Origin: Planctomycetota bacterium
Lineage (GTDB): Bacteria > Planctomycetota > Phycisphaerae > SM23-33
Direction: 5' to 3'
Length of the DNA stretch: 53,359 nucleotides
NCBI GenBank assembly: GCA_012729725.1
Contig: JAAYCO010000246.1
Coordinates: 1 to 53,359 of the forward strand
Every line of letters begins with the position of its first letter. The first letter of the stretch is position 1. Under the pieces are notes generated by a model. The model ran no database searches, was not told the DNA's origin, and was given only the letters and a program-made list of their open reading frames with translations. Of this stretch, positions 46,887 to 52,714 are shown in pieces. A program made the position numbers and the translations under genes.

Positions 46887-49517
46887 ATGAACACAGCATG
46901 GCGCTTCTCGTATCGTAGTCTGGACCAGCTTCTTGAAGATGTAAAACGCCTGGGGCTGGACCTTCCCGTTTCCCGCGATTTCTCAATTCTCGCCAAGCCC
47001 GTCTCGTTCGGGCGAAAGACCGCGCCCAATCGCCTGGCGGTTCACCCGATGGAAGGCTGCGACGGGCTCGACGACGGCTCGCCCAGCGACCTGACCATCC
47101 GCAAGTACCGCCGATTCGCAGCGGGCGGCGCGGGCCTGATTTGGTGGGAGGCGTGCGCCGTCACCCCCGAGGGCAAGGCCAACCCGCGCCAGATAAGCCT
47201 TACCGACGACAGCGCCCCGGCCTTCAAGCGCATGCTGGACGAGTCGCGATCCGCAGCCGTCGAAGCCAACGGCCCCGCCCCGGTTTGCATCCTTCAGCTC
47301 ACCCACAGCGGCAGGTACAGCAGGCCCGGCCTAAAGCCCGCGCCTATCATCGCCCATCATTCCAGCGTGCTCGACGGGCGACACAACCTGCCCCCCGATT
47401 ACCCGCTGATAACCGACGAGCAACTCGACGAACTGCAACTCGCCTTCGTCAAGGCAGCGCTGCTGGCCAGGCAGGTGGGTTTTGACGGCGTGGACATCAA
47501 GAGCTGCCACCGTTATCTGCTTAGCGAACTGCTTGCATCGTTCACCCGGCAAAACAGCAGGTACGGCGGTAGCTTCGAGAACCGCATCCGCATGCTGATC
47601 GAAACGGCAGGCAAGATCAGGCAGGCTGTTGGCGAGGATATGGAAGTATCCAGCCGGCTTAACGTGTACGACGCCATCGAGCACCCCTTCGGCTGGGGCG
47701 TTTGCAGAGACGACGTTTCGAAGCCCGACCTGGCCGAGCCGTTGGCCCTGATCGCCCAGCTTCGCCGCGTTGGATATCGCTGCCTGAACGTCTCCATCGC
47801 CAACCCGTACTTCAATCCGCACGTTAATCGCCCCGCCGATTGGATGATCGCCAACTGGCCCGAAGCGCCCGAGCACCCGCTCAAGGGCGTCGCCAGGTTC
47901 GTTCACATTGTCCGGCAGGTTCAGCAGGCCAACAAGGATCTGGCGGTAATCGCCGGCGGATACTCGTGGTTGCGGCAGTACATGCCGTTTGTCGCCGCCG
48001 CTGCCGTCGAGGCAGGGTGGACGACGATGGTCGGCCTGGGCAGGGGGGCGCTGGCGTACCCCGAATTCGCACGCGACATCATCACCGGCAAGGGCATGGA
48101 CGCTCACAAGGTGTGCATCGCGTGCAGTTCATGCACGCAGATAATGCGCGACGGCGGGCGCAGCGGCTGCGTCGTGAGAGATTCCGAGATCTACGGCCCG
48201 ATCTTCCGCGAGGGCAGGCGATCGGACCCCCTGGTGATCCGCGAAATGGCTTCGCGCTGCCGGCGCTGCGCCGACGCCATGTGCAAAACCGCGTGCCCCG
48301 CGGGTGTTGATATCCCCGGCTTCGTGGGCGCTGTCGCCGACGGTGACGAAAAGGGCGCTTACGAAATTCTGCGGCAAAGCAACGCGCTGCCGGGCATATG
48401 CGGCGCGGTGTGCCCCGTCGAGGTGCAGTGCCAGTCGGCGTGCGTGCAGCGGCTGCTGGGTGAGGGTCCGGTGCAGATCGCTGAAATCCAGCGCCGCCTG
48501 TCGCTCAAGGCAATTGCAGAAGGATGGGCGGGACTGAAGGTTCCGCTGGAGGCAACCGGAGTGAAGGTCGCCGTTATCGGCGCGGGCCCGGGCGGCCTGG
48601 CTGCTACGGCCGAGCTGCTTCGGCTGGGGCACTCGGTAACGGTCTTCGAGCGGACTGCCGCACCCGGCGGAAAGCTCGGCAGCGTGATACCAACCTCGCG
48701 GCTGAGAGCCGAAGACGCCCGCGCGGAAATCGAGGCGGTATTCGCGATGCTTCCGCCGCACAGGCTGACGTGGCGATACGAAACGCCCCTTGGGGCGAAG
48801 TTCACGCTGGACGACCTGCTGAGCGAGGGCTTTGACGCCGCCGTGCTGGCGATAGGGCTGGGCAACGGACCTTCGCTGACGGCAGCGGGCAGGCCCGAAG
48901 GCGCGATGGACGCCGATGCGTTCCTGCGGCATATGAACCACAATCCCGACCATCGCTGCCCGGCCCGCGTTGCGGTGATCGGCGGTGGAAACACGGCAGT
49001 GGACTCGGCGGTCATGGCCCGCCGCCATGGAGCGACCGACGTTTACCTCGTCTACAGGCGAAGCTATGAACAGATGCCCGCCTGGCCAAAGGAACGCGAC
49101 GAGGCCCTGCACGCCGGCGTTCACCTGATGCTGTTGTGCCAGCCGACCGGATACAAGACCGACAGCGGCGGCAGGGTCGCGTCGCTCAAGGTGATGCGGA
49201 CGAGGCTCATTGCCACCGACACCGGCAGGCGGGCTCCCCAGCCGATCCCCGGCAGCGAGTTCCTGCTCGATGTGGACCTGGTTGTCGAGGCCATCGGCGA
49301 GAGCATAGATCCCATCCTTGCCAACGTGCTGGGCGGCGTTGAGCTGACCGACGACGGATTGATAAAGGTTGATTCGAAAACCCTCGCCACCACCCGCCCA
49401 GGCGTCTGGGCGGCCGGCGACGTTGTCAACGGCGGCGCCACAGTTGTTCAGGCAATCGCCGAAGGCAAACGCGCCGCCGACGAAATAGACGCCTTCGTTT
49501 CCGCCGCCAAACGTTGA
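46887..49517 (+). CDS. Fused OYE-type flavin oxidoreductase and GltD-like FAD/NAD(P) oxidoreductase
   Basis: N-terminal barrel (NRLAVHPMEGCDG, ILQLTHSGRYSRPG). Fe-S CIACSSCTQIM. GltD-type CRRCADAMCKTACPAGVDIPGF...CGAVCPVEVQCQSAC. VAVIGAGPGGLAATAEL and VAVIGGGNTAVDSA. Confidence 0.92.
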   Translation: MNTAWRFSYRSLDQLLEDVKRLGLDLPVSRDFSILAKPVSFGRKTAPNRLAVHPMEGCDGLDDGSPSDLTIRKYRRFAAGGAGLIWWEACAVTPEGKANPRQISLTDDSAPAFKRMLDESRSAAVEANGPAPVCILQLTHSGRYSRPGLKPAPIIAHHSSVLDGRHNLPPDYPLITDEQLDELQLAFVKAALLARQVGFDGVDIKSCHRYLLSELLASFTRQNSRYGGSFENRIRMLIETAGKIRQAVGEDMEVSSRLNVYDAIEHPFGWGVCRDDVSKPDLAEPLALIAQLRRVGYRCLNVSIANPYFNPHVNRPADWMIANWPEAPEHPLKGVARFVHIVRQVQQANKDLAVIAGGYSWLRQYMPFVAAAAVEAGWTTMVGLGRGALAYPEFARDIITGKGMDAHKVCIACSSCTQIMRDGGRSGCVVRDSEIYGPIFREGRRSDPLVIREMASRCRRCADAMCKTACPAGVDIPGFVGAVADGDEKGAYEILRQSNALPGICGAVCPVEVQCQSACVQRLLGEGPVQIAEIQRRLSLKAIAEGWAGLKVPLEATGVKVAVIGAGPGGLAATAELLRLGHSVTVFERTAAPGGKLGSVIPTSRLRAEDARAEIEAVFAMLPPHRLTWRYETPLGAKFTLDDLLSEGFDAAVLAIGLGNGPSLTAAGRPEGAMDADAFLRHMNHNPDHRCPARVAVIGGGNTAVDSAVMARRHGATDVYLVYRRSYEQMPAWPKERDEALHAGVHLMLLCQPTGYKTDSGGRVASLKVMRTRLIATDTGRRAPQPIPGSEFLLDVDLVVEAIGESIDPILANVLGGVELTDDGLIKVDSKTLATTRPGVWAAGDVVNGGATVVQAIAEGKRAADEIDAFVSAAKR

Positions 49518-49562: not shown

Positions 49563-49720
49563 GGGCACAACGCGAGAGCCCCGCATGGCAATGCGGGGAC
49601 CTGGCTTCCCGTCGCGTAGCGACACCTCGCCGTTAATGCCGGCACGAAGATGCTCTTCGTCTCGTTTGCGCGTGATCACGACGCAAACGAACGAGAACCG
49701 GAATGAGGTTGCGCTGCGCA
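49563..49720. repeat. Palindromic repeat element, copy B (right terminus missing)
   Basis: GAGCCCCGCATGGCAATGCGGGGACCTGGCTTCCCGTCGCGTAGCGACACCTCGCCGTT, CGTGATCACG centre, then GAGGTTGCGCTGCGCA. Confidence 0.8.
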
Positions 49721-50437
49721 AAGCGCGCGTTTAAGGGCGACTTTGTAGTCTCGACCGGGTCTTGTCCGGTCGATCATGCCGCACAACTCAAGATGATCCG
49801 CAGCCTCATGCACGGCCTTGCGGGTAGCGCCGCACAGGCGGGCCAACTGGGCTTCAGAAGCCCCGGATGTCGCGTCATATTGAAGACACGCCAGAATGGA
49901 CGCTCGCAAACCGCCGCTCAAAATCGCTCGAACCTGCATTGACGGGTTCTTCTCCATGATCCAGTCGAGCGGGCGGAGGGCATCGGTCTTCAACTCGATG
50001 TCTTCGGTCCACAGGTTCCACCGCTTCGAAACCTTTGAAGCCCGCGACCGGGCGAATTCAGCAAGCCCGTTGCTGGCTCTGTCGGCGGTGAATAACGGCA
50101 TTTGCGTTGATGCGGGGCCGCAAGCGGACTTGGCCGCAGCAAAGACGTCGGTGTGGCACATCGTGTCAACGGTATCAAGAAGTAGGCCCAGAACTGCTAC
50201 GGCGGCGGGGTCCTCAGCCTCGCCAACCATTCGCCTCAGGCGATGCCTGGCAACCAGACGCCCGTAGTGCGACAGCCAAGTCGCGGCCATGATGAACAAC
50301 CGAGGACTGCCTGGAATCGCTGTGGCCGTGTCCAGAAGCAAACGCTCCAAATCGGGTGTCTGCCGAGACGGCGGCACGTTAAACAGCACGCCCAGACGAC
50401 ACCATCGCCTGACGAGTATCTGGTTGGAGCCGTTCAT
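49676..50437 (-). CDS. Winged-helix-domain protein, candidate partner of the nucleotidyltransferase
   Basis: C-terminal wHTH segment RASILACLQYDATSGASEAQLARLCGATRKAVHEAADHLELCGMIDRTRPGRDYKVALK. 4-bp ATGA overlap with the upstream gene. Confidence 0.7.
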   Translation of the reverse strand: MNGSNQILVRRWCRLGVLFNVPPSRQTPDLERLLLDTATAIPGSPRLFIMAATWLSHYGRLVARHRLRRMVGEAEDPAAVAVLGLLLDTVDTMCHTDVFAAAKSACGPASTQMPLFTADRASNGLAEFARSRASKVSKRWNLWTEDIELKTDALRPLDWIMEKNPSMQVRAILSGGLRASILACLQYDATSGASEAQLARLCGATRKAVHEAADHLELCGMIDRTRPGRDYKVALKRALCAAQPHSGSRSFAS

Positions 50438-50991
50438 GGCAGTTGGCCCTCAAGGAGACGAAGATACTCCTGAGCCGAAGCCACCTGATCCAGATCTGCT
50501 TTGCGGCAGGGTGTCCTCAGCATGTTCAGGTACTTTCGCACGAATGCGACCTCGTCGGGGGTGATCCGCATCTCCGCGATATCTTCGCGATCTGGGGCGC
50601 GGTGGGCGAAGACCTTCATGGCCAAGAGGTCCAGCCGGCAGGCAGCGTAGATCTTCAGCTTGCCATAGGTGGCGATGTGTTGGCGGCGGCTGCGCCAGCC
50701 GTCAGGAAGAACGTTTAACTGTCGAATCTGATCGTTGAACCATGTCGGAGGCAGCTTCATCTTCGTCGCGGCCATTTGCGCCGCCTGTTCGACCGCCGCT
50801 GCCGCGGCGGAAGGAGCGAAGTCCGCCACATCGCAATCGCCCGTGGTCCGGTCAGGCCTCAAGACTCCGATGAGCATGCCCGCGGCGCCGCCGATGAGCA
50901 GAATCTCCACCTCAAGAGGCCAATCGAGCAGATTGCCCACCATTTTCAAGGCTTCGAGCATGTCCGCAGCCGTAAGGTGTGTCTGTGTCAC
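50434..50991 (-). CDS. Nucleotidyltransferase-fold protein (AbiEii/DUF6036-like)
   Basis: EILLIGGAAGMLIGVLRPDRTTGDCDVADF: GG motif and DxD (DCD) of minimal nucleotidyltransferases. DLLAMKVFAHRAPDREDIAEM is typical of this group. Confidence 0.78.
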   Translation of the reverse strand: MTQTHLTAADMLEALKMVGNLLDWPLEVEILLIGGAAGMLIGVLRPDRTTGDCDVADFAPSAAAAAVEQAAQMAATKMKLPPTWFNDQIRQLNVLPDGWRSRRQHIATYGKLKIYAACRLDLLAMKVFAHRAPDREDIAEMRITPDEVAFVRKYLNMLRTPCRKADLDQVASAQEYLRLLEGQLP

Positions 50992-51012
50992 GGTTCATCT
51001 CCAACCATATTA

Positions 51013-51029
51013 GTATAGTATTACTATAC
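51013..51029. promoter_or_regulatory. Perfect palindrome, candidate operator of the NTase-wHTH operon
   Basis: GTATAGTA-T-TACTATAC, 21 bp upstream of the reverse-strand ATG at 50991. Confidence 0.65.
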
Positions 51030-51218
51030 CAATACCGCCGCGGGCAAACAAGGGTTGTCTTTGCGTTTGCGAATGATGCCGACCCTTTGAACGAACGCGC
51101 TCAGATACATGATCAGGCTATATGGGGACGGGGGCTTGACTTCCTTCGCGAGGGGAAACCTTGTCAAAACCGACAGGCCGGAAAGCGCTTTTGCTCAAGT
51201 CATGATCCATACCGTCCG

Positions 51219-51602
51219 ATGACAACCATTAGCGGCCACAGAGGCCGTCAAACACCCGACACCGAGGCAGACATGGTAACGATCGAAGGCGAATGGATTG
51301 AGTTTAAGTTCTTCCGTCCACAGGCCAGGCAGGTCCATCTGGCCGGCGACTTCAACAACTGGCGTCACGGCGAATTGCCGATGTCCCAGTTGGACGCCGG
51401 TTATTGGGTCGCGCGCCTTCGCCTTCCGGCAGGGGAGTTCCGATTCCGCTACTGCGCAGACGGCGAATGGTTCACAGACTACGCCGCCTTCGGCGTGGAA
51501 CCGGGCCGGTTCGGCCTCGACAGCATCCTTCGCATCCCGCACAAGAGCCTGCAAATGCCCGTCAAGCCCGCCGCCGAAAAGCGACAGGTGGCTGCTGCCT
51601 AA
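51219..51602 (+). CDS. Stand-alone CBM48/AMPK-type glycogen-binding domain protein
   Basis: IEFKFFRPQARQVHLAGDFNNWRHGELPMSQLDAGYWVARLRLPAGEFRFRYCADGEWFTDYAA. Alternative start at 51273. Confidence 0.85.
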   Translation: MTTISGHRGRQTPDTEADMVTIEGEWIEFKFFRPQARQVHLAGDFNNWRHGELPMSQLDAGYWVARLRLPAGEFRFRYCADGEWFTDYAAFGVEPGRFGLDSILRIPHKSLQMPVKPAAEKRQVAAA

Positions 51603-51625: not shown

Positions 51626-51704
51626 GATCACATTCGAACGAAAACGGCGTGGTTTCGCCGCGCGATGACAATTGGCTTTCCCCCATTTGCCGTGCGGGGC
51701 TTTC
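51626..51704. repeat. Palindromic repeat element, copy C (right half only, degenerate)
   Basis: GATCACATTCGAACGAAAACGGCGTGGTTTCGCCGCGCGATGA...CCCCCATTTGCCGTGCGGGGCTTTC matches the right half of copy A. Confidence 0.65.
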
Positions 51705-51723: not shown

Positions 51724-52491
<768 letters not shown>

Positions 52492-52554: not shown

Positions 52555-52714
52555 CAGCGCCGCGCAGGAAGCCCCGCATGGCCATACGGGGTTTCCTGCG
52601 TCGCGCTGATTGTGGTTCATGGGTGTTATTCGAACAACAAACAACGGCGAGGATTCGCTGCGCGATAACAGTCAGGTCCCCGCATTTCCATGCGGGGTTT
52701 CTTGCGTCGCGCTG
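52555..52714. repeat. Palindromic repeat element, copy D (terminal hairpin plus a right half)
   Basis: CAGCGCCGCGCAGGAAGCCCCGCATGGCCATACGGGGTTTCCTGCGTCGCGCTG, then AACGGCGAGGATTCGCTGCGCGATAACAGTCAGGTCCCCGCATTTCCATGCGGGGTTTCTTGCGTCGCGCTG. Confidence 0.85.

Follow-up and report, generated by a model that had tools for sequence, protein, structure and literature searches.

A DUF6036 nucleotidyltransferase gene and its overlapping partner gene: a probable toxin-antitoxin-like module in Planctomycetota and Bdellovibrionota

What is the function of two overlapping genes, one for a nucleotidyltransferase (NTase) and one for a protein ending in a helix-turn-helix (HTH) domain, in the genome of a Planctomycetota bacterium? 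The pair lies on contig JAAYCO010000246.1, of which a stretch of 53,359 nucleotides was analyzed (hereafter the window). An earlier note on this DNA proposed a possibly undescribed toxin-antitoxin or defence operon, related to AbiE with the gene order reversed. Here we follow the pair through related genomes, compare it with known systems and weigh the explanations that fit it.

The gene pair and its two proteins

Both open reading frames were found where the earlier note had placed them, on the minus strand: an NTase gene with a GG...DCD motif and a downstream gene that overlaps it by ATGA. The features are as follows.

50434..50991, minus strand: DUF6036 nucleotidyltransferase gene, predicted toxin (185 aa, GTG start, stop codon included)
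49676..50437, minus strand: partner gene, predicted antitoxin and repressor (253 aa, stop codon included)
50434..50437, minus strand: ATGA stop/start overlap of the NTase and partner genes, seen in the sequence
50999..51002, minus strand: GGAG, probable ribosome-binding site of the NTase gene, seven bases before GTG in the sequence
49928..50437, minus strand: N-terminal helical domain of the partner (about residues 1-170), predicted to bind the NTase; holds most invariant columns
49724..49924, minus strand: C-terminal HTH of the partner, possibly winged (about residues 172-238); sub-threshold MarR/Crp HTH matches
51013..51029, no strand assigned: perfect palindrome GTATAGTA-T-TACTATAC (8+1+8), predicted operator
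51008-51034: 27-bp imperfect palindrome in the sequence, enclosing the perfect one

A convergent gene for a flavin/FeS oxidoreductase ends at 49517, and on the other side lie a CBM48 protein gene (51273-51602, plus strand) and scpB. Promoter and terminator scans gave no signal above chance. The window also contains a 12-nt tandem repeat in four copies (51754-51813), which lies within the C-terminal end of scpB and codes a PEAK/PDAK-like repeat. A REP-like palindromic repeat, CCCCGCATNNNNATGCGGGG, is found at 49577-49598, 51679-51704, 52570-52591 and 52676-52697, some copies being imperfect. The latter is a dispersed element with 127 perfect copies in the genome (against none for the reversed control pattern), often paired at a spacing of ~105-135 bp.

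The NTase belongs to Pfam family DUF6036 (PF19502; E 6e-11, 42.9 bits against a cut-off of 23.6), which is matched by 23 of 24 homologues and is labelled in Pfam as a 'nucleotidyltransferase of unknown function'. Its active-site string reads G34-G35...R48-T-T50-G-D52-C-D54. Across 64 homologues G34, S/T50, D52 and D54 are each conserved in 63 of 63 sequences and K126 in 64 of 64, followed by less strict conservation of D137 (61), R48 (60), R131 (54) and D134 (52). All four motifs (I-IV) of AbiEii, each of which is needed for AbiEii toxicity (PMC3985639), are strongly conserved in this set, and the active site is intact. The spacing between K126 and R131 is 5 in the window NTase, compared to 7 in the AbiE motif. 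Pfam AbiEii is matched weakly by seven of the 24 homologues (best E 5e-4); the window NTase matches DUF6036 only.

The AlphaFold model of the NTase has a mean pLDDT of 91.7, and its best fold matches in the PDB are weak ones to MenT1 and AbiEi entries (E 0.03 and above, TM <=0.45). The best toxin matches are the MenT1 entries 8an5, 8an4 and 8rr5 (E 0.03-0.3, again weak). In terms of active-site layout the NTase is like the AbiEii and MenT toxins, yet it forms a separate family. Three NTases (L129, L130 and L131) carry a GGGG-A-M variant of motif I, and the gene downstream of each (~230 aa) has no clear similarity to the partner profile; it is possibly a further type of partner, or a very diverged one. 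Four Bdellovibrionota-type genomes (G473, G475, G605 and G661) contain four to six DUF6036-like NTases each.

The partner as a whole matches no family (in Pfam neither AbiEi nor HEPN) and has no sequence match in the PDB. Its HTH scores below the Pfam cut-offs in the window protein (MarR_2 E 0.016, HTH_Crp_2 E 0.025) and better in a 40%-identical homologue, that of locus L006 (GntR 6e-5, HTH_24 1.5e-4). For the partner, an AlphaFold model was made of one remote homologue (L042, mean pLDDT 94.8), in which an all-helical N-terminal domain is followed by a C-terminal three-helix HTH. Of the winged-helix end described in the earlier note the HTH is borne out, and the wing is possible. The Foldseek comparison that the same note had suggested was informative for the NTase, though weakly so; for L042 it returned no whole-protein match in the PDB or BFVD, its N-terminal domain gave HTH-sized or chance matches, and neither 8an5 nor 6y8q appeared among the matches listed.

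The N-terminal part had been taken for a long extension on a winged-helix protein. It is actually the conserved core: most invariant residues of the partner lie here (alignment A1), and the partners of L009 and L010 retain this domain and lack the HTH. Since it survives the loss of the HTH, the N-terminal domain is likely the part that binds the NTase. For the first 170 residues of the partner, Pfam, NCBIfam and PADLOC gave no match. The partner would thus contain an antitoxin domain that is absent from the libraries searched, and the family appears to be new.

Conservation, loss and setting of the pair

Among 100 relatives the partner was found in nine genomes at 35-46% identity. An NTase gene immediately precedes it in L005, L006, L008 and L010, and in L007 the NTase gene carries a frameshift. 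A phylum-wide profile search gave remote homologues of the partner, where the NTase is directly upstream in L016, L018, L019, L023, L024 and L025. Scanning named genomes with partner subgroup A3 yielded 24 loci, mostly from Planctomycetota, the Bdellovibrio group and other proteobacterial MAGs, and most of these have the NTase upstream; a scan of named-genome contigs using the NTase alone gave no match. Homology between these two subgroups of partners extends over 180 columns (hhalign probability 96.8, E 2.5e-10).

A search seeded with the NTase is less biased than one seeded with the partner. In Planctomycetota it shows a partner homologue directly downstream in 28 of 30 fetched loci, the exceptions being L090, where a long ORF matches in part, and L093, whose NTase is broken. 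In Bdellovibrionota the partner is directly downstream in all 31 assessable loci, a count that covers the best-scoring NTases and excludes one locus cut by a contig end; more distant NTases differ. NTase-seeded matches occur in 48 of 392 sampled Planctomycetota genomes and in 82 of 192 sampled Bdellovibrionota genomes; the second figure also counts the Xre-paired relatives described below. The pairing is near-obligate and its order fixed: the NTase precedes the partner in every pair, so the reversal relative to AbiE in the earlier note holds throughout. Overlaps are found in 52 of 58 intact pairs, and 57 of 58 lie within 20 nt. Distances between NTases and between partners are correlated (r 0.78 against a permutation maximum of 0.19), to which shared ancestry contributes. 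Because adjacency is conserved, chance pairing can be excluded. Apparently we are dealing with a widespread two-gene family that is undescribed, as the earlier note had suspected: the databases and papers searched contain no description of the pair, and a literature search that covered few subscription journals and preprints found no mention of DUF6036 or PF19502.

Distant DUF6036 NTases of Bdellovibrionota are directly preceded by an Xre-type HTH gene (HTH_3) in L132, L134, L135, L136, L137 and L145. This indicates at least two types of regulator for DUF6036 NTases, which fits the reading of the NTase as a toxin and sets the NTase-first branch apart. HTH-like genes were also seen upstream of DUF6036 NTases in L140 and L144.

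Gene loss is asymmetric. Among 75 loci that contig ends leave whole, 55 carry intact copies of both genes. In 11 the partner is intact and the NTase is broken or missing, although errors in MAG assembly may account for some of the breaks. In none of the 75 does an intact NTase occur without the N-terminal domain of the partner. Apparent cases of this kind have other causes: L113 ends 11 bases past the NTase, L010 retains the N-terminal domain, and the partners of L084 and L125 are full-length ORFs that miss a coverage cut only. Intact partners without an NTase occur in L003, L004, L017 and L062. Such an asymmetry (11 against 0) would be expected of an NTase that does harm on its own and a partner that does not.

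The site itself is variable as well. In two relatives (L148 and L156) about 390-435 bp separate the oxidoreductase gene from the CBM48 gene and the module is absent, which makes the pair an accessory unit at the window site. Carriage by mobile elements was rejected, as phage, plasmid and IMG/VR searches gave no copy of the pair. Likewise, a setting in defence islands was rejected: no consistent defence-gene context was found, neighbours vary across loci and those in the window are metabolic or housekeeping genes. PADLOC gave no confident match for the pair. A role in anti-phage defence is possible but unsupported. The sole direct sign of mobility is a phage-type integrase gene directly downstream of the pair in L052 (L052:3620-4549).

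Palindromes upstream of the NTase gene

The perfect palindrome of the window sits 22 bp before the NTase start codon. It has a single match in the window even when 3 mismatches are allowed, and 0 in shuffles. Palindromes of the form GTAT-N9-ATAC or GTAT-N11-ATAC lie close to the start of the NTase gene in 25 of 47 regions (p <=0.05 against Markov shuffles), this pattern being defined post hoc from the same data, and all eight core bases are present in 11 of the 47 upstream regions. None was found in the deepest Planctomycetota group. The 8-base core alone shows no genome-wide enrichment (10 sites against 14 for a control).

The orphan partner genes of L003 and L004 retain an upstream palindrome, and it is absent from L009 and L010, where the partner lacks the HTH. 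The operator-like palindrome thus tracks the HTH of the partner. To judge from this sequence pattern, the partner probably represses its own operon through the palindrome.

Comparison with known systems and rival explanations

The earlier note called the pair AbiE-like, and for the motifs of the NTase this stands. AbiE shares NTase motifs I-IV (including R-x3-D-x-D, K(x)nR and DxxD), a two-gene operon with an HTH-bearing partner and inverted repeats in the promoter (PMC3985639). For the partner the likeness fails: AbiEi carries an N-terminal wHTH, whereas here the HTH is C-terminal and AbiEi is not matched. Moreover, the antitoxin gene comes first in AbiE and the NTase there is of the AbiEii/DUF1814 family. 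Gene order, domain order and the family of the antitoxin all set the module apart from AbiE. That the pair is nonetheless a genuine, divergent AbiE operon with rearranged order could be argued from the shared motifs, the autoregulatory palindromes and the weak Pfam AbiEii matches, but we reject membership on these three differences, together with the DUF6036 assignment of the window NTase, and consider it most improbable. Gene order itself may not be new, since the genes of DUF1814-superfamily NTases (COG2253, COG4849) typically lie upstream of those for predicted regulators (PMC11375011). MenAT systems (PMC10435456, PMC11375011) share the R-x-[ST]-x-D loop with its phospho-acceptor position: R37-T39-D41 of MenT1 equals R48-T50-D52 of the window NTase, and T39 is phosphorylated under the influence of the antitoxin MenA1 (PMC11375011). 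Structural similarity to MenT1 is weak, however, and menA1 precedes menT1. MenA1, a protein of 68 aa, lacks a DNA-binding domain, and MenA3 belongs to COG5340 (PMC10435456, PMC11375011). The partner has no PDB sequence match, and neither 8an5 nor 6y8q is among its listed fold matches, which speaks against a MenA-type antitoxin here. The Xre-type pairs of Bdellovibrionota have the same NTase family beside an HTH gene, but that gene is upstream and unrelated to the partner. A parallel in layout comes from MqsRA and other toxin-first type II systems, where the toxin gene also comes first and the antitoxin, with an N-terminal toxin-binding and a C-terminal HTH domain, represses its own operon; MqsR is an RNase with a fold unrelated to the NTase.

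In HepT/MntA (HEPN/MNT), where two genes likewise pair an NTase with a helical protein, an MNT-type NTase is the antitoxin of a helical toxin (PMC7641770). With roles swapped in this way, the NTase would chemically modify and silence a toxic partner, and the window partner does contain an R-x4-H string (RLVARH). The HEPN motif (R-x4-6-H) is not conserved among the partner homologues in alignment A1, though, and the four partners without an NTase should be lethal. These two observations led us to reject the swap; the HTH on the partner and the AbiEii-like motifs of the NTase also speak against it, and we regard it as very unlikely. Somewhat less unlikely, but still improbable, is that the NTase is an accessory regulatory or stress enzyme acting on RNA, protein or a small molecule, with the partner as its cofactor and repressor. 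Conserved catalysis, coupling and autoregulation fit equally well, as does a chromosomal pair that is not consistently associated with mobile or defence genes. It accounts less well for the resemblance to known NTase toxins, for the patchy distribution with empty sites and for the loss of the NTase rather than the partner.

We therefore prefer, at a probability of roughly 70%, a toxin-antitoxin-like module in which a predicted NTase toxin is encoded first and a predicted autoregulating antitoxin second. The NTase would add nucleotides to an essential RNA, as AbiEii/MenT toxins do, most likely at the 3' end of tRNA, and translation would be blocked. The N-terminal helical domain of the partner would bind and silence the NTase and might in addition promote the phosphorylation of T50, in the way that MenA1 acts on T39 of MenT1. 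The C-terminal HTH would bind the palindrome at 51013-51029 and repress the operon. Whether this extends to a widespread, undescribed class in Planctomycetota and Bdellovibrionota, in which a helical antitoxin domain with a C-terminal HTH controls a tRNA-modifying DUF6036 toxin encoded first, we judge to be evenly balanced.

If true, DUF6036 NTases have at least two independent types of antitoxin (the partner type and the Xre type) and toxic nucleotidylation of tRNA extends to a new NTase family. The toxin-antitoxin reading would give a function to DUF6036 and add a new antitoxin domain, and it predicts both the operator and the phospho-acceptor residue. It would also show that the antitoxins recruited by NTase toxins can be unrelated to each other and opposite in the order of genes and domains, and many genomes of Planctomycetota and Bdellovibrionota could be annotated at once.
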